Shown piece after piece: positions 36,034-43,054 of a stretch of 64,000 nucleotides of DNA (position 1 is the first letter of the stretch; each line of letters opens with the position of its first letter). This DNA is from Owenweeksia sp. (GTDB lineage Bacteria > Bacteroidota > Bacteroidia > Flavobacteriales > Schleiferiaceae). Under the pieces are notes generated by a model. It had not been told where the DNA came from, ran no database searches, and worked only from the letters and a program-made list of their open reading frames with translations. Both the position numbers and the translations under genes were made by a program. The stretch lies in the NCBI GenBank assembly GCA_002695025.1, contig NZNV01000020.1:1-64000 (forward strand). The letters are read 5' to 3'.

Positions 36034-36453
36034 TTAATGTTGGGTTTTACTGTAATTCAACATCCACTGCACTCCGTATTTATCGGTTAAGGAGCCGTAG
36101 TAATCTCCCCAAAACATATCCTGAAGGTCTGTTTCTACGGTGCCACCAGCTGCAAGGGCTTCAAAAACGCGTTTGGTCTCCTCGCGACTATCCGGGCTGA
36201 TCATGATATAAGTGTTGTTTCCCATTTGTACGGTAAAGCCCATTTCTTCCGGGGCATCGCTGCCCATCAGGTAACTATTATCAATAGGTAGGGTAATGTG
36301 CATGATCTTATCCTTGAGGGGATCAGGAATCGTAGAGTCCGGGTTTTCACCGAAGCGGTTTACGTTCAGGAATTCTCCGCCAAAAACGGAGCGGTAAAAA
36401 TTAAAGGCAGCTTCGGTATGGCCTCCAAAGTTGAGATAGGGATTGATTTTCAT
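36034..36453 (-). CDS. VOC family protein, PhnB-like
   Basis: This 139-residue protein has the PhnB/3-demethylubiquinone-like glyoxalase fold: MKINPYLNFGGHTEAAFNFYRSVFGGEF, MHITLPIDNSYLMGSD, and the typical end FWGDYYGSLTDKYGVQWMLNY. These proteins form dimers with a shared pocket for a metal or small ligand. Despite the PhnB name, phosphonate metabolism is not implied. It lies 33 bases after an SRPBCC gene. Confidence 0.9.
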   Translation of the reverse strand: MKINPYLNFGGHTEAAFNFYRSVFGGEFLNVNRFGENPDSTIPDPLKDKIMHITLPIDNSYLMGSDAPEEMGFTVQMGNNTYIMISPDSREETKRVFEALAAGGTVETDLQDMFWGDYYGSLTDKYGVQWMLNYSKTQH

Positions 36454-36486
36454 GACAACAGGTATTAGAAATTTAGATAGGTGATT

Positions 36487-36969
36487 TTAAAATGTGGACG
36501 GTTTGTTTTCTGCCAGTTCCTTTATTTTGAGCAAGGCCTGGTCCCACATGCCCATAAAAAGTCCCAGGTACTCCTCTGAGGTTTCCTGTTCAATGGAAAG
36601 GGTGGTTATGCCGCCTTCTTCATAAAGCTTATAGGCTTCGGTAAACCCCTTTACATTATGGGCATCTTCACTTTCCAGGTCTTCCTGCCCGTTTTCCAGG
36701 AAACCGAGGTATTCGATCTTCAGGGCGTAATTCGGGTTATTCTCCACCACCCGTGCCACCAGTCCAAAGCCGTGGCCATCGTCAATACGTACCTTGCTGC
36801 CCAGCTGCCAGTCCGTTTCTGCAAATGATCCAGGGTTGAAGCGGGAATACCAGGCCCTTACACAAGGCTCTTCCGTGAGTACTTCCCATACCCGCTTCCT
36901 GGGGGCGTTGAGGTCAATACACTTGTGGATCAACTCCTTTGTAATATGGGAAACCCGGGTCTGGATCAT
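36487..36969 (-). CDS. SRPBCC family protein (AHSA1-like)
   Basis: This 160-residue protein has the START/Bet v1-like fold of the AHSA1 branch: CIDLNAPRKRVWEVLTEEPCVRAWYS, LGSKVRIDDG, and a C-terminal long helix (EYLGLFMGMWDQALLKIKELAE). The fold encloses a hydrophobic cavity for lipids or other small molecules. Its start overlaps the stop of the VOC gene before it by four bases, which implies coupled translation. Confidence 0.88.
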   Translation of the reverse strand: MIQTRVSHITKELIHKCIDLNAPRKRVWEVLTEEPCVRAWYSRFNPGSFAETDWQLGSKVRIDDGHGFGLVARVVENNPNYALKIEYLGFLENGQEDLESEDAHNVKGFTEAYKLYEEGGITTLSIEQETSEEYLGLFMGMWDQALLKIKELAENKPSTF

Positions 36970-37358
36970 CTGTAATTATCTTCGAGAACTGAGAGTATAT
37001 TTCCGGCTGGGTCGGTAAACCAGGCAATACTGGGCCCTTGTTCAGCGCTTTCACTGCGGACAATGCCTTTTTCATCCTGTTTAAAGCCCTCATAACGTTC
37101 CATAGTGACGCCCTTGGCGATCAGGCCATCCACCGCTTGGTCAATGTCCTTAACCGGAAAGCTCAGCACGGTGAATACAGCCGGCCGGTGATCGGGCTTG
37201 GGATAAATGATGATATGGCTGTCTCCGGGAAAATGTACTTCCAGGATGTCCATGGGATTATCCTTTACGTTTAGTCCCAGGGTATTGCCATAAAACTCCC
37301 TCGCGTCCTCTATATTGTTGGTGGAGAAACTTCCAAAGGCTTTGCTGTTTTGTAACAT
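36966..37358 (-). CDS. VOC family protein
   Basis: This 130-residue glyoxalase-fold protein has one beta-alpha-beta-beta-beta module at the start (FGSFSTNNIEDAREFYGNTLGLNV), then FTVLSFPVKDIDQAVDGLIAKGV, ending IAWFTDPAGNILSVLED. The last motif keeps the Asp/Pro/Gly turn of the family. An upstream extension of the frame (to 37544) reads as nonsense and is antisense to the hydrolase, so the ATG at 37358 is the start. Confidence 0.88.
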   Translation of the reverse strand: MLQNSKAFGSFSTNNIEDAREFYGNTLGLNVKDNPMDILEVHFPGDSHIIIYPKPDHRPAVFTVLSFPVKDIDQAVDGLIAKGVTMERYEGFKQDEKGIVRSESAEQGPSIAWFTDPAGNILSVLEDNYR

Positions 37359-37377
37359 GATTTTGAGGGTATGGGGG

Positions 37378-38259
37378 TTATTCTTTACGCAGGAATTCTT
37401 CCAGGATATCAACGGTATAAGTTTGGGCCCATATACCATTGTTGAGGGTTTCCACCGTGCCCAGGTAAGCACCGTGCATGCCTGGCAGTATGACCAATTC
37501 ACAATGGGGGATGAGGCGGTACATGGCCGTGGCATGTTCCACACTGGCCACGTCCTGGGTTGTATTGATCACCAGGGTGGGGCTTTCAATGGATTGTATT
37601 TGTTGGTCAGTCCAGCCGGTAAAGCCCTTCATCAGTTCTACATCACGCTTAAACATATTCTCAAGACCTTCAGGGCTGTTATTGGCCTTCAGGTAAGCAT
37701 CTTTCAAAGGCTGGGGCATCCTATCCAGCGTAGCAGAATTAAAACCCGCCCAGAACTGCTCAGGTGCTCCCTCTCTTGTGTAGATGGTGGAGGCCAGGAT
37801 AAGTTTGTTGATGAGGTCAGGATGATTCAACGCTAACTCTATCAGCACATTGGCACCGTTGCTGAACCCAAGGAAATCAGCTTTATTCACATGAAGGTTG
37901 TCCATAAGTGCCGCAATATCATCTGCACTTTGCCTGAAACTTAATGCGGTATCACGGTCCGCAGTGTGGCCATGCGCCTGTATTTCCATGGCAATTACCT
38001 GATGGTTTTTGGCCAGGTAGGGGATGATATTCCCGAAGGTGCTTTCTATGGTAGAACCTCCTCCATGTACCAATAGCAGGGGTTTCCCTTCCCCGTATAT
38101 TTCGTAATACATTTTAAGGCCATTTACTTCCGAATAACCACTCTGCACATTAAGCGCAGTGGTATCTGCTGAAGGAGATTCATCAATTTTTACTTTGGTT
38201 TTCATCTGGCATGAAATGAGGATAGATACTAGTAAAGTGTACGTAAATAAGGTTCTCAT
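37378..38259 (-). CDS. Lipoprotein alpha/beta hydrolase
   Basis: This 293-residue protein has a lipoprotein signal (MRTLFTYTLLVSILISC) and an alpha/beta hydrolase domain. The oxyanion motif is LVHGGGSTIES, the nucleophile elbow GFSNGAN, the acid region VINTTQDVASVEH, and the His in LPGMHGAYLG. The early MYYEIYGEGKPLLLVHGG strand is usual for the family. The lipid anchor places it outside the cytoplasm, unlike its operon partners, so it may act on a compound at the envelope. The substrate is unknown. Confidence 0.88.
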   Translation of the reverse strand: MRTLFTYTLLVSILISCQMKTKVKIDESPSADTTALNVQSGYSEVNGLKMYYEIYGEGKPLLLVHGGGSTIESTFGNIIPYLAKNHQVIAMEIQAHGHTADRDTALSFRQSADDIAALMDNLHVNKADFLGFSNGANVLIELALNHPDLINKLILASTIYTREGAPEQFWAGFNSATLDRMPQPLKDAYLKANNSPEGLENMFKRDVELMKGFTGWTDQQIQSIESPTLVINTTQDVASVEHATAMYRLIPHCELVILPGMHGAYLGTVETLNNGIWAQTYTVDILEEFLRKE

Positions 38260-38270
38260 AAAAGATGGTT

Positions 38271-38660
38271 TTACATATACAGTACGTTCCAGCGGTGCCC
38301 GTCCAGGTCGGCAAAGGCGCAGCCGTAATATATACCCTGTATTTCAGCAGGAGGAGCAAAGAGATTTCCACCCGCAGCTTTTACCAGTTCTGCTATCCTA
38401 TCCACTTCTTCCCGTGTTTCTGCATCAAAGGAGATGATCATTTGCGAGGTTTTGGAAGTATCGGGCAACTCGCTTTGCATGATGGCCTTAAGTTGATTTT
38501 CTTCAAACAACATTACAGGTACGGGTTTTTTCCCCACCATCATAGCCACCATATTCGGGTTCTCCCGGTCTTCACGAAAAGCAAAGCCGATCTTGCTGAA
38601 AAACTCTTTTGATTTCCGGGGATCTTTTACCGGGAGGTTTAACCATAGTTCTTTGGTCAT
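38271..38660 (-). CDS. VOC family protein
   Basis: This 129-residue protein begins MTKELWLNLPVKDPRKSKEFFSKIGF, a VOC start, and has the second half MIISFDAETREEVDRIAELVKAAGG ending GCAFADLDGHRWNVLYM. It resembles the YycE/ylmE-like branch often annotated as extradiol dioxygenase, but metal ligands are incomplete. Its start overlaps the SRPBCC gene stop by four bases. Confidence 0.88.
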   Translation of the reverse strand: MTKELWLNLPVKDPRKSKEFFSKIGFAFREDRENPNMVAMMVGKKPVPVMLFEENQLKAIMQSELPDTSKTSQMIISFDAETREEVDRIAELVKAAGGNLFAPPAEIQGIYYGCAFADLDGHRWNVLYM

Positions 38661-39148
38661 AATCTACTCTTTAAGAAGTTAGTGAGCTGGGTAAAGGTGC
38701 CTTCAAAACCCATTTTCACATTTTGGGTATTGGCATTAAAGGTGTTCCTTTCTTCGGTTGTGGCCTGGTAGGGTTCAATGGTCAATTCCAAAGTGGTAAT
38801 ACCATCCTTTTCATCCAATCGCAGGGTATTTATCATTTTCAGGGGCCAATGTTTGCCGAAAGGTACTTCGGGAGCCTTTACCACTTCTGCGGCCGGGTTG
38901 GAAAAGGAGTTGATAAAGATCAAGTGATTTGGTTCCCTGATCTCCTGATAGGAAAACAGTCCCCACATGTCCATTCCCTTTCCGTCCTTGATCACATAGT
39001 GAAAAGTGCCACCGGGTTTAAAGTCAAAAGTCTTTACTTCTGTGGTAAACCCTTCCGGACCCCACCAGGCTACAATACTTTCAGCTTTACTCCAGGCATT
39101 GAAAACCTGTTTTGGGGTAGCATTGAATTCTTTGGAAATAATAAGCAT
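38657..39148 (-). CDS. SRPBCC family protein (AHSA1-like)
   Basis: This 163-residue SRPBCC protein has the AHSA1 signature: ISKEFNATPKQVFNAWSKAESIVAWWGPEGFTTEV, then GGTFHYVIKDGKG and the C-terminal EGTFTQLTNFLKSRL helix. This is the sub-branch often found with ArsR regulators. It lies between a DoxX gene and a VOC gene, repeating the order of families seen elsewhere in the operon. Confidence 0.9.
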   Translation of the reverse strand: MLIISKEFNATPKQVFNAWSKAESIVAWWGPEGFTTEVKTFDFKPGGTFHYVIKDGKGMDMWGLFSYQEIREPNHLIFINSFSNPAAEVVKAPEVPFGKHWPLKMINTLRLDEKDGITTLELTIEPYQATTEERNTFNANTQNVKMGFEGTFTQLTNFLKSRL

Positions 39149-39159
39149 ATCAATTGTTG

Positions 39160-39540
39160 TTAAGACCGGATCAACGGGGCATATTTTTTTCGGTTATCTA
39201 TCAGTATCCAAAGGAGGATAGCCCATATTACCAGGGCTATTAGTAAGCTGTTGGGCTCAACAAATATGTGGGTCAACAGTATTCCCACCGCAACCGGAAA
39301 CAGGATAAGAGCACCTAAAGCCCTGGTTTTTGGAAATAGTATGAGCAGACCACCCGCCACTTCCGCCAAACCGATCAGGGGCATTAACCACGCTATTTCC
39401 ATTATAGCCTGAAAGTCCTTAAGCATAGGCTCCGGGATATCCTCAGGAACGGGCATATAATTAAAGAATTTATTCAGGCCTCCATTGATGAACAAGAGGC
39501 CCATGATGACCGAAAGGCCGTTTAGAATTTTACGTTTCAC
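39160..39540 (-). CDS. DoxX family membrane protein
   Basis: This 126-residue protein has four membrane segments, with GLSVIMGLLFINGGLNKFFNYMPVP at the start, ILMPLIGLAEVAGGLLIL-like segments, and a charged end. The NKF motif after the first segment is common in DoxX proteins of Bacteroidota. It is the second DoxX-type gene of the operon, and it differs from the one at 35645. Confidence 0.85.
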   Translation of the reverse strand: MKRKILNGLSVIMGLLFINGGLNKFFNYMPVPEDIPEPMLKDFQAIMEIAWLMPLIGLAEVAGGLLILFPKTRALGALILFPVAVGILLTHIFVEPNSLLIALVIWAILLWILIDNRKKYAPLIRS

Positions 39541-39551
39541 GATGGCGATTG

Positions 39552-39953
39552 TTAGTCAGTTAAGGGGAGCATACATTTTACATCTTCTCCATAATACCAT
39601 TCTATACCTGGCATGGCAGTGGGGTATTCAGAATCTCCCAGCTTTTTGAAAGTAGCTTCAAAGAGGTGTTCCTTTCCCTGCCAGTTTTCAATAAGCTCGG
39701 TGAGATAATCCCCTTTTGGAATGGTCCATTCCCCGGTACCAAGCTTTTCTGCTTCACCAGGCTCCTTTGCAGAACAAGCGGCTATATACACTAGTTTCCC
39801 GTTTTCCAGGTAACTGATACCAAACATAGTACGCCCTTCAAAACCACCTGTTTTGGCTATAAGACGCTCAAAGGCAGCTTTTACATCATGGGGGAATTCC
39901 TTTGCCTTTTCGCACAGGGTTGTAATATCCTTTTCAAGTGTATAAATTTTCAT
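39552..39953 (-). CDS. Probable GyrI-like/effector-binding domain protein
   Basis: This 133-residue protein has the pattern of stand-alone effector-binding (GyrI-like) domains: FGISYLENGKLVYIAACSA, EWTIPKGDYLTELIENWQG, a helix with LFEATFKKLGD, and MPGIEWYYGEDVKCMLPL at the end. The resemblance is moderate. Such domains bind small, often cationic molecules without a DNA-binding part. It lies between the SnoaL-like and DoxX genes with gaps of five and eleven bases. Confidence 0.65.
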   Translation of the reverse strand: MKIYTLEKDITTLCEKAKEFPHDVKAAFERLIAKTGGFEGRTMFGISYLENGKLVYIAACSAKEPGEAEKLGTGEWTIPKGDYLTELIENWQGKEHLFEATFKKLGDSEYPTAMPGIEWYYGEDVKCMLPLTD

Positions 39954-39958
39954 AACCT

Positions 39959-40324
39959 TTAACTTTTAAGGATTACTATATAAGAGGTTAATTTTTTGAT
40001 CTTGGGGTCTTTAAAACCGGAAAACTCATACACGTCACAAAAACCGTAATGCTCTTCTGCACCCTTGTTTTCCATGGTCATACGGCCGTTCACCGAAGCC
40101 TTGCGGCCATGGGTGATGATCGCATCAATAGTAGTAGAAAGCAGTTTACTGCTATCGTCCATATTGTCAAAGAACTTTTGCAGCTCTTCCTTGCCGTGAA
40201 AGGTTTGGTCTCCAACCATTTCCCATTCTACATCATCGGTAACACTATCCAGTATAAAGGGGATATCCGGTTTTAAAAAGGCATCGTTGAATTTGCGCAG
40301 GAACTCTTCTTTCTTATTGGTCAT
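39959..40324 (-). CDS. SnoaL/NTF2-like fold protein
   Basis: This 121-residue protein has the cone-shaped NTF2-like fold: KFNDAFLKPDIPFILDSVTDDVEWEMVG, then FHGKEELQKFFDNM and the closing YEFSGFKDPKIKKLTSYIV. These folds hold a hydrophobic pocket; known members are polyketide cyclases, isomerases and binding proteins. It follows a VOC gene by three bases. The role is unknown. Confidence 0.8.
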   Translation of the reverse strand: MTNKKEEFLRKFNDAFLKPDIPFILDSVTDDVEWEMVGDQTFHGKEELQKFFDNMDDSSKLLSTTIDAIITHGRKASVNGRMTMENKGAEEHYGFCDVYEFSGFKDPKIKKLTSYIVILKS

Positions 40325-40327
40325 AAT

Positions 40328-40741
40328 TCAAGGCTTAGGTCTGCAGTTGAACATCCAGTTCTTCCCGAATTTATCGGTAAGGGCACCAAACACATCGCCC
40401 CAGGGAGCTTTAGCCAGTTTTTCCTGGATCGTACCTCCAATAGCCAGTTTATCAAAATATTGATGGCATTTCTCCTCATCATCTCCAAAGAGGCAAAGTG
40501 AAAAGTCATTTCCCTCTTTATGACCGCCCGGTAGGCCGGCATCGGTGCCCATAATTACGATATGGTCAGAGGTTAACATAGCGTGCAGGATACCATCGCG
40601 CTGGTCCACGGGGAATTGTTCCGCCATGGGTGATTCACGGATGGGATTCAACTCCAGGGTACCACCCAGGCACTCTTTGTAAAAACTCATGGCTTCGGTA
40701 CACTTACCGTTGAAATTCAGATAGGGAGACAGGTGTATCAT
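40328..40741 (-). CDS. VOC family protein, PhnB-like
   Basis: This 137-residue PhnB-type VOC protein begins LSPYLNFNGKCTEAMSFYKECLGGTLEL and ends APWGDVFGALTDKFGKNWMFNC. It is similar in layout to the VOC protein at 36034, but only in family motifs. It lies two bases after an SRPBCC gene and three bases before the SnoaL-like gene. Confidence 0.9.
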   Translation of the reverse strand: MIHLSPYLNFNGKCTEAMSFYKECLGGTLELNPIRESPMAEQFPVDQRDGILHAMLTSDHIVIMGTDAGLPGGHKEGNDFSLCLFGDDEEKCHQYFDKLAIGGTIQEKLAKAPWGDVFGALTDKFGKNWMFNCRPKP

Positions 40742-40743
40742 GA

Positions 40744-41169
40744 TCAGTTGGTTTCTGTATGTTGTTTGAAATTATCCAGGATGGCCTGCCATCCGACCCT
40801 CTGCAGTTCTACCGGGTTCTGGTTTTCGGCATCAAATGTTTCCGTGATATGGGTTTGGTCACCACGGCTTTCAAAATGTATTTCTACTTTCCGATCATCA
40901 TCCAGGGTATAGGCAATGTGCTCATGTTTCCGGATGTCCGTATAGGTTCCTCCAAAGTCAAAGCCTGCACTGCCATCTTTGGCTTCCATCCGGTAAACCA
41001 GCCGGCCTCCCTCTTTAAAGTCGTTACTGGCCGTAGGTGTGTGCCAGTCCGGGTGGGCGCTGTTCCATTTAATGATATGATCCGGGTCGTTCCAGTAATC
41101 CCACACTTTTTCCATGGGTGCATTTACCGTGGCCTGGATGGTGACTTTTATTGTTTTGGAGGTTTCCAT
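40744..41169 (-). CDS. SRPBCC family protein (AHSA1-like)
   Basis: This 141-residue SRPBCC protein starts TIKVTIQATVNAPMEKVWDYWNDPDHIIKWNSAHPDWHTP, with ITETFDAENQNPVELQRVGWQAILDNFKQHTE at the end. It is the first gene of the 13-gene run and follows a 332-base gap, so the operon promoter should lie upstream of it. An AATCTTTG box near 41197-41204 on the minus strand is close to the -7 consensus. Confidence 0.9.
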   Translation of the reverse strand: METSKTIKVTIQATVNAPMEKVWDYWNDPDHIIKWNSAHPDWHTPTASNDFKEGGRLVYRMEAKDGSAGFDFGGTYTDIRKHEHIAYTLDDDRKVEIHFESRGDQTHITETFDAENQNPVELQRVGWQAILDNFKQHTETN

Positions 41170-41501: not shown

Positions 41502-41969
41502 TTATTTACGTTTAGCCTTCAGGTCTTTCAGGTAAACTTCCAGTTTTTCGGCATTTTGTTCCAGTCCTTTATCCGCCTTGAAGGTTTTGACAGTCTGTAT
41601 AAACTCTTCGCGGTCCCTGAATAGCATGGTCCAGATGATCTTTGTTTGTTCACCCAGATCTTCAAACTCTATATGGGCTATAAAATGTGGTCCGTGCTCA
41701 TGTTTATAGGCAATCAGTTTGCGCTCGATTACCTCGGTATAGGTGTATCGGTTGGGGTAAACGGTTCCGTCCGAACCTGTCATGGTAAGCTCGTAGCGGC
41801 CACCGGTATAAGGTTCCAAAAGGCTTACTTCATTGGTAAAACCATGGGGCCCCCACCAGTTTTGAATATGTTCGGGTTTTGTCCACACCTCCCAGACCAG
41901 ATCAATAGGAGCGTTTAATATGCGGACCATTTGCAGCCCTCTGTCGTCAATGTCACTTTGTTTTATCAT
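41502..41969 (-). CDS. SRPBCC family protein (AHSA1-like), coupled to arsR
   Basis: This 155-residue AHSA1-type protein starts GLQMVRILNAPIDLVWEVWTKPEHIQNWWGPHGFTNEV and ends with a helix EFIQTVKTFKADKGLEQNAEKLEVYLKDL. Its start overlaps the arsR stop by 17 bases, so the two are translated as one unit. ArsR-SRPBCC pairs are common across bacteria; the SRPBCC protein is presumed to carry the function that ArsR switches on. Confidence 0.92.
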   Translation of the reverse strand: MIKQSDIDDRGLQMVRILNAPIDLVWEVWTKPEHIQNWWGPHGFTNEVSLLEPYTGGRYELTMTGSDGTVYPNRYTYTEVIERKLIAYKHEHGPHFIAHIEFEDLGEQTKIIWTMLFRDREEFIQTVKTFKADKGLEQNAEKLEVYLKDLKAKRK

Positions 41970-42285
41970 GCTGTTTATTTTTTAAAGTTTCCAGGTATTT
42001 TTCCAGGGAATCCAGTTTAGCCTCCCAGAACTGACGGTATTGGTCTATCCATTCGTGTACTTCGCTGAGAGGTTCAAGCTGAGGGTAGCAATAGCGCTCA
42101 CGGCCCTGTTTTTTTATGACCACAATGCCACATTCTTCCAGCATTTTGATGTGCTTGGAAATAGCGGGGCGGCTGATATCAAATTTTTCGGCCACTGCAT
42201 TAAGGTTCAGGGGTTCTTGGGTGATCAGTCCGATGATTTCCCTGCGGGTAGGGTCGGCTATGGCCTGAAATACGTCTCTTCTCAT
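41953..42285 (-). CDS. ArsR family transcriptional repressor
   Basis: This 110-residue winged-helix repressor begins MRRDVFQAIADPTRREIIGLI and has LNLNAVAEKFDISRPAISKHIKMLEECGIVV as the recognition region. The metal-site CxC of true arsenic or zinc sensors is missing, so it belongs to the non-metal branch linked to SRPBCC genes. The ATG at 42285 is chosen; the longer open frame would start within the operator region. Two matched palindromes lie just upstream. Confidence 0.93.
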   Translation of the reverse strand: MRRDVFQAIADPTRREIIGLITQEPLNLNAVAEKFDISRPAISKHIKMLEECGIVVIKKQGRERYCYPQLEPLSEVHEWIDQYRQFWEAKLDSLEKYLETLKNKQHDKTK

Positions 42286-42301
42286 AACATCATCTATATT
42301 A

Positions 42302-42345
42302 TGTAACAAATTGGTTACAAATATATATGTAACTGATTTGTTACG
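42302..42345. promoter_or_regulatory. Double ArsR operator between arsR and the reductase gene
   Basis: Two copies of TGTAAC-N6-GTTAC[A/G] occur at 42302-42319 and 42328-42345, with centres 26 bases apart. They fill the space between the divergent arsR and reductase genes. Paired sites of this form fit one dimer each, controlling both directions. Confidence 0.7.
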
Positions 42346-42400
42346 CAAATTTGATAAAACAATTTTTGGTGGTGACCCTGTTATGTATCCAAACAAGAAT

Positions 42401-43054
42401 ATGGATTATAAACAAAAAGTAAAAAGTCTGGACTGGCTGGCTCATAATGCCGTACAGTTGCGGGTTGAAAAGCCGGCCGGTTTTGAATACCAGGCAGGAG
42501 ATGCGGTAGAGATCAAAGTAGGGGACCAGGATTCCGGACCTTTTACCATGACTAATCTGCCCGATGAAAGCTATCTGGAATTTGTGATCAGGATCTACCC
42601 GGATCATAACGGTAAGACCAAGGCTATTAGCAAGTTATCAGCCGGAGATGAAATAGAATTTACAGAGCCTTTCGGTACTTTCCAGGAAAAGGAAGGAGCC
42701 ATTTTCCTGGCGGGAGGCACCGGCATTACGCCATTTCTGGCTATTATGCGCAAGATGTATGAAGTGGGTAAACTGGAGAACAGCCTTCTGTTCTTTTCCA
42801 ATAAGACCCGTAAAGATCTTTTCCTGGAAAAAGAGTTGCGCGCTATGCTAGGCGACCGTTACCAAAATGTGATCACTGAAGACAAGGAGGACCCGGAATA
42901 TTATGGTGAAATTGATGGGGACTATTTAAAGAACCGTATCGGTGACCTTTCCAAACCGCTTTTTATATGTGGCCCACCGCCCTTTGATAAGGCCATGCAG
43001 GAGATAGCGGAAAGCATTGGAATTGAAACAAACAATATGAACCTGAGCAGTTAG
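42401..43054 (+). CDS. Ferredoxin/flavodoxin reductase-like FAD-NAD(P) protein
   Basis: This 217-residue protein has the ferredoxin-NADP reductase fold: an FAD-binding beta barrel (about 1-95, VEKPAGFEYQAGDAVEI and GPFTMTNLPDESYLEFVIRIY) and a nucleotide-binding half starting IFLAGGTGITPFLAIMRKM, with LFICGPPPFDKAMQEI at the end. The FAD motif normally reads RPFTFT or RxYS; the Arg is replaced by Gly here, which may weaken flavin binding. No iron-sulfur domain is present. It is divergent from arsR and likely shares its operators. A second ATG at 42383 would add six residues. Confidence 0.85.
   Translation: MDYKQKVKSLDWLAHNAVQLRVEKPAGFEYQAGDAVEIKVGDQDSGPFTMTNLPDESYLEFVIRIYPDHNGKTKAISKLSAGDEIEFTEPFGTFQEKEGAIFLAGGTGITPFLAIMRKMYEVGKLENSLLFFSNKTRKDLFLEKELRAMLGDRYQNVITEDKEDPEYYGEIDGDYLKNRIGDLSKPLFICGPPPFDKAMQEIAESIGIETNNMNLSS

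Follow-up and report, generated by a model that had tools for sequence, protein, structure and literature searches.

Probable tandem palindromic operators of an arsR-SRPBCC operon in Owenweeksia sp. and a putative helix-to-operator code of SRPBCC-linked ArsR repressors

ArsR regulators are abundant and, to our knowledge, most of them have no known target. In Owenweeksia sp., two palindromes of the form TGTAAC-N6-GTTAC lie side by side between an arsR gene and a divergent reductase gene, and the locus raises the question of which genes the palindromes control and how their letters are read. The window analysed was the whole 64,000-nucleotide stretch of contig NZNV01000020.1. The first-pass annotation had described the pair, with centres 26 bp apart, as operators of this ArsR; the description of the pair was found to be correct, and its assignment to ArsR is supported by the conservation of the double site in orthologs and by its prediction from the helix. 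The palindromes are very probably the tandem operators of an arsR-SRPBCC autorepression switch, the half-sites of which would be read by the N-terminal part of the recognition helix. As a system, the locus would be an ordinary local ArsR-SRPBCC autorepression operon with a two-operator promoter; the putative ArsR recognition code exposed by it was apparently undescribed before.

The operon, its promoter and its repressor

The arsR gene (41953-42285, minus strand) was found to encode a repressor of 110 aa with an ATG start, followed by the presence of the AHSA1/SRPBCC gene (41502-41969, minus strand; Pfam AHSA1, E 1.6e-21) as the second gene of the operon. The two genes overlap by 17 bp, as had been annotated, and the SRPBCC gene was found directly after arsR here and downstream of it in 115 of 124 ortholog loci, the arrangement of an ArsR-SRPBCC operon. 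The 147-aa arsR frame in the ORF list was found to be a TTG-started extension running through the operators. The repressor scored above the cut-offs of Pfam HTH_20 and HTH_5 and of NCBIfam HTH_metalloreg, and its place in the ArsR/SmtB family was indicated by HTH_5 (40.6 bits, cut-off 22), by NF033788 (66.9, cut-off 55) and by the fold of its AlphaFold2 model, a winged helix with a mean pLDDT of 89 and a recognition helix at residues 39-51. It was not found to belong to the SdpR autorepressor family (NF033789), with 58.4 bits against a curated cut-off of 100.

The arsR strand was found to contain, in order, TTTG (42349-42346), a 20-base stretch occupied by operator 1, TATATTTG (42325-42318), operator 2 and the start codon. 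The TTTG element (42346-42349, minus strand) was assigned as the -33 element from its sequence and the ortholog layout, and TATATTTG (42318-42325, minus strand) as the -7 box from the Bacteroidota consensus TAnnTTTG, which has been published as the flavobacterial sigma-A -7 box (PMC9723704); the TTTG-N20-TATATTTG upstream of arsR thus has the form of a Bacteroidota sigma-A promoter. Operator 1 (TGTAACTGATTTGTTACG, 42328-42345) fills the spacer between the -33 and -7 elements, and operator 2 (TGTAACAAATTGGTTACA, 42302-42319) starts where the -7 box ends and extends across the expected arsR transcription start. This two-site layout was found to be kept at 184 of 222 Bacteroidota ortholog loci, and no clear operator pair was found at about 38 of the 222 under the criteria used. 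The pattern TTG-N18-22-TAnnTTNG was found to bracket the first operator in the promoters of 154 of these 184 loci, compared with 0.7% in shuffled sequences. Palindromic operators in the operon's own promoter, as in operons of the Rv2034 type, were found here as two conserved, helix-predicted sites.

The proposed mechanism follows this layout. One ArsR dimer would bind each 16-bp core (half-site GTAAC, 6-bp centre), one of them between the -33 and -7 elements and the other from the -7 box across the start site. The geometry leads us to infer that a repressor on either site would block RNA polymerase, and the bound repressor would thereby keep arsR and the AHSA1/SRPBCC gene low. A signal would then free the repressor from the operators and the operon would be turned on.

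Regarding this signal, the repressor had been annotated as lacking metal cysteines and as likely to have an organic or redox trigger. The CxC (alpha-3) site of ArsR/SmtB metal sensors was indeed absent (0/222 orthologs), but the protein was found to contain C52 and C66 and is thus not cysteine-free. Of the 222 Bacteroidota orthologs, 207 retain C52, which lies just after the recognition helix; in a 20-sequence alignment of close orthologs, neither C52 nor C66 varied. The two residues were seen to flank the wing, with C66 within it. The view that this ArsR is not a canonical metal sensor is supported by the ortholog sequences; a thiol signal through the conserved C52 and C66 is conceivable, and the two residues may serve as a thiol switch or have a structural role.

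Reach of the operators within the genome

The exact pattern TGTAACN6GTTAC was found in 3 places of the 4,460,847-base genome, two of which are operators 1 and 2, and the shorter GTAACN6GTTAC in 6 places, the 4 non-operator copies all lying within long coding frames. The copies with one mismatch numbered 119 genome-wide against 162 for a reversed control pattern, and hence no excess was found. Since the exact copies elsewhere are coding and the one-mismatch copies are not in excess, the sites are specific and nothing points to a regulon. The search for a TGTAACN6GTTAC regulon, proposed by the first-pass annotation, gave no further intergenic exact copy.

The same annotation had extended the regulon to the promoter of a large 13-gene operon, so that the sites would be a general motif serving also the adjoining large SRPBCC/VOC island. 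The island does lie directly downstream of arsR-SRPBCC and on the same strand, but no copy with two or fewer mismatches was found between 30834 and 42301, a span that takes in the promoter region of the island, and the genome was found to contain no other intergenic exact copy; this reading is considered extremely unlikely. At 36034-41169 of the window, small genes (SRPBCC, VOC, SnoaL, DoxX and the like) were seen to follow arsR-SRPBCC in a run on one strand. The gap between the gene pair and this run is about 330 bp and was found to contain no operator copy.

The divergent gene on the other side encodes a flavoprotein reductase (42401-43054, plus strand; start possibly 42383), which was found to contain FAD_binding_6 and NAD_binding_1 domains; a 2Fe-2S domain was not found in it by family searches. 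It had been proposed that this gene is switched together with the SRPBCC gene, in which case ArsR on operator 1 would also block the -33 element of the reductase and the two proteins would rise as redox partners. For the reductase, a weak element resembling a promoter (TTTG-N20-AATTTTTG, 42337-42368, plus strand), with one mismatch to the -7 consensus, was found to have its -33 part within operator 1, and a genome of the same genus was found to contain a 32%-identical reductase adjoining a different SRPBCC-arsR pair; however, the genes there are convergent and the ArsR belongs to another class (L287 5979-7418). The orthologs did not bear the proposal out, as a reductase homolog was absent at 96 of 96 ortholog loci (flanks up to 4 kb) and the upstream neighbour was found in either orientation at random (48 vs 44). 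Six reductase homologs with 8-kb context were moreover found to have neither ArsR nor SRPBCC alongside. Joint switching of the reductase and the SRPBCC gene is therefore considered doubtful. To judge by these sequences, a collateral control of the reductase by ArsR is possible in this genome, and such control is not a conserved design. For the locus itself, the speculative story of a redox island is replaced by a testable switch of local autorepression.

Recognition-helix residues and operator letters

The letters of the operator arms were found to vary with the recognition helix across the Bacteroidota orthologs. In the present repressor the residues 38-45 are SRPAISKH (codons at 42151-42174, minus strand), and helices of this class were found with GTAAC half-sites, followed by SRPAISQH with GTAAG, xRQAVSKH with GCAAC, xRQAVSLH with GCAAG, ARPTVSKH with GTAGY, SRQTISKH with GCAGY, and xRAAxYKH with GAAAC (or GCAAC). 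From the relatives and 80 named Bacteroidota loci, which showed the double site, a first rule was drawn by which helix residues 40, 41 and 44 set the half-site letters 2, 4 and 5, and it was recorded in advance of reading another 130 loci sampled across the class. With near-identical proteins removed and letters called by locus majority, the rule was correct in the held-out loci for letter 2 in 83 of 99, for letter 4 in 97 of 97 and for letter 5 in 92 of 96. The letter 2 was often A in one or both of the outer half-sites, and 16 of the 99 loci missed by majority for this reason. When the loci were scanned without a prior search for palindromes, 102 of the 120 held-out ones contained the predicted site with at most one mismatch in eight letters, whereas predictions made for other classes reached 5.7%. 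In the TRQAVSKH/SRQAVSKH class (L125-L177), the outer half-sites were often GAAAC and the inner ones GCAAC; the four half-sites of this class are non-equivalent, perhaps with graded affinity.

The code was followed beyond the Bacteroidota in plasmid-borne ArsR-SRPBCC loci of other phyla, which added the first letter of the half-site, R39 being found with G and L39 with T. The L39 proteins were found with a TTAAC half-site in the bacteria Nostoc and S. meliloti and in the archaeon Natrinema. The second version of the rule, with residue 39 for letter 1, was recorded before eight new loci were read, of which six were testable. Five of these six were within one mismatch (four with all eight letters and one with one mismatch), and the remaining locus contained two mismatches; the four full matches were those of Mesorhizobium, Methylobacterium, Tsukamurella and S. 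meliloti, the last with Q39 and A. Altogether 22 of 25 plasmid-borne loci (23 from outside Bacteroidota and 2 from Bacteroidota) were within one mismatch of eight, against 26 of 534 swapped predictions (4.9%), the 19 earlier loci having helped to shape the second rule so that the fresh six are the clean test. With residue 39 included, the predicted code extends to other phyla and to haloarchaea.

The fit was uneven for Q39 proteins, that of S. meliloti pSymB fitting fully, that of Rhizobium partly, and those of Sphingobium and Rhodococcus DK180 poorly. The SRPAVSQH proteins of Rhodococcus and Tsukamurella were found to belong to the GTAAG class. A Staphylococcus plasmid (L302 359-1106) was seen to contain the SRPBCC gene followed by arsR, and the imperfect palindrome AACACCaaaaGGTGTC there precedes the SRPBCC gene; this order suggests that the operator goes with whichever gene comes first in the operon.

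The helix and the operator letters might also co-occur through shared ancestry alone, with no direct reading of letters by residues. In a tree computed with the helix omitted, residue 44 was found to change 13 times and letter 5 also 13 times, with agreement in 179 of 179 rows. Most branches of this short-protein tree were weakly supported, so that well-supported independent switches are few, as shared ancestry would have it, and a strict independent-pairs test left 2 pairs on well-supported branches, too few for significance. However, the same pairings were found in distant groups: in Bacteroidota, Actinomycetota and Pseudomonadota alike Q44 went with G, while both Bacteroidota and Haematobacter had T41 with G, and both Bacteroidota and Phaeobacter had A40 with A. 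The E44 proteins were likewise found with GTCGG half-sites, in which letter 3 also becomes C, in Chitinophagaceae (Bacteroidota), Tsukamurella and Streptomyces (L096, L311, L312). Ancestry alone is very unlikely as the explanation, and direct reading through base contacts is preferred. In the proposed code, residue 39 would set letter 1 (R:G, L:T, Q:A), residue 40 would set letter 2 (P/S:T, Q/N:C, A:A), residue 41 would set letter 4 (A:A, T:G) and residue 44 would set letter 5 (K/R:C, Q/L:G). We incline, with some reserve, to the view that this modular code is valid throughout the non-metal SRPBCC-linked branch of ArsR, in bacteria and archaea, and that the operators could be predicted from the helix alone.

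Meaning and comparison with known systems

If true, a short helix rule would make the regulons of many uncharacterised ArsR regulators searchable. The code would also offer engineers orthogonal pairs of repressor and operator, and it would supply a clean family for studying the joint change of repressor and site. A comparable residue-letter rule for the ArsR family was not found in the open-access literature searched; for a comparison with Brucella ArsR6 and MSMEG_6762, no site letters were found in the papers on them. The codes of the LacI, MerR, GntR and IclR families (PMC2978694, PMC5045206, PMC4494728, PMC8222616) came from the same approach of residue-to-letter covariation, in which regulators are set against their sites, applied to other families.

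The closest solved relative of this ArsR in sequence and fold was found to be 3F6O (RHA00566, an ArsR-family regulator of Rhodococcus), whose recognition helix contains ALPSFMKH, unlike the SRPAISKH found here. The repressor NolR of Sinorhizobium fredii (PDB 4OMY, 4OMZ, 4ON0) resembles this ArsR in having the ArsR fold without a metal site and in a residue opening the recognition helix, Gln56, that matches residue 39 here, whereas it differs in being a global symbiosis regulator with the site (A/T)TTAG-N9-A(T/A) and about 20% identity to this ArsR. Its Gln56 reads A or T by a base-specific contact, and the equivalent Lys50 of RexT is proposed to read G (PMC8960804). The NolR Gln56 was found to align without net gap to residue 39, and by analogy these contacts appear in line with the Q39:A and R39:G pairings.

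The nearest likeness in operon layout is Rv2034-Rv2035 of Mycobacterium tuberculosis, where an SRPBCC-type gene likewise comes after arsR and overlaps it. Rv2034 acts there as the autorepressor of the ArsR-SRPBCC operon, was footprinted on CCGTAAGT-N4-ACTTACGG and did not respond to seven metals (PMC3338718). That system lacks the Bacteroidota -7 box and has further reported targets, dosR and phoP. Its operator is one footprinted palindrome with GTAAG arms, whereas two palindromes with GTAAC arms are present here; the palindrome is nevertheless in the same frame (GTAAG-N6-CTTAC core), and the Rv2034 footprint, compared by its letters alone, agrees with the code as a member of the GTAAG class.
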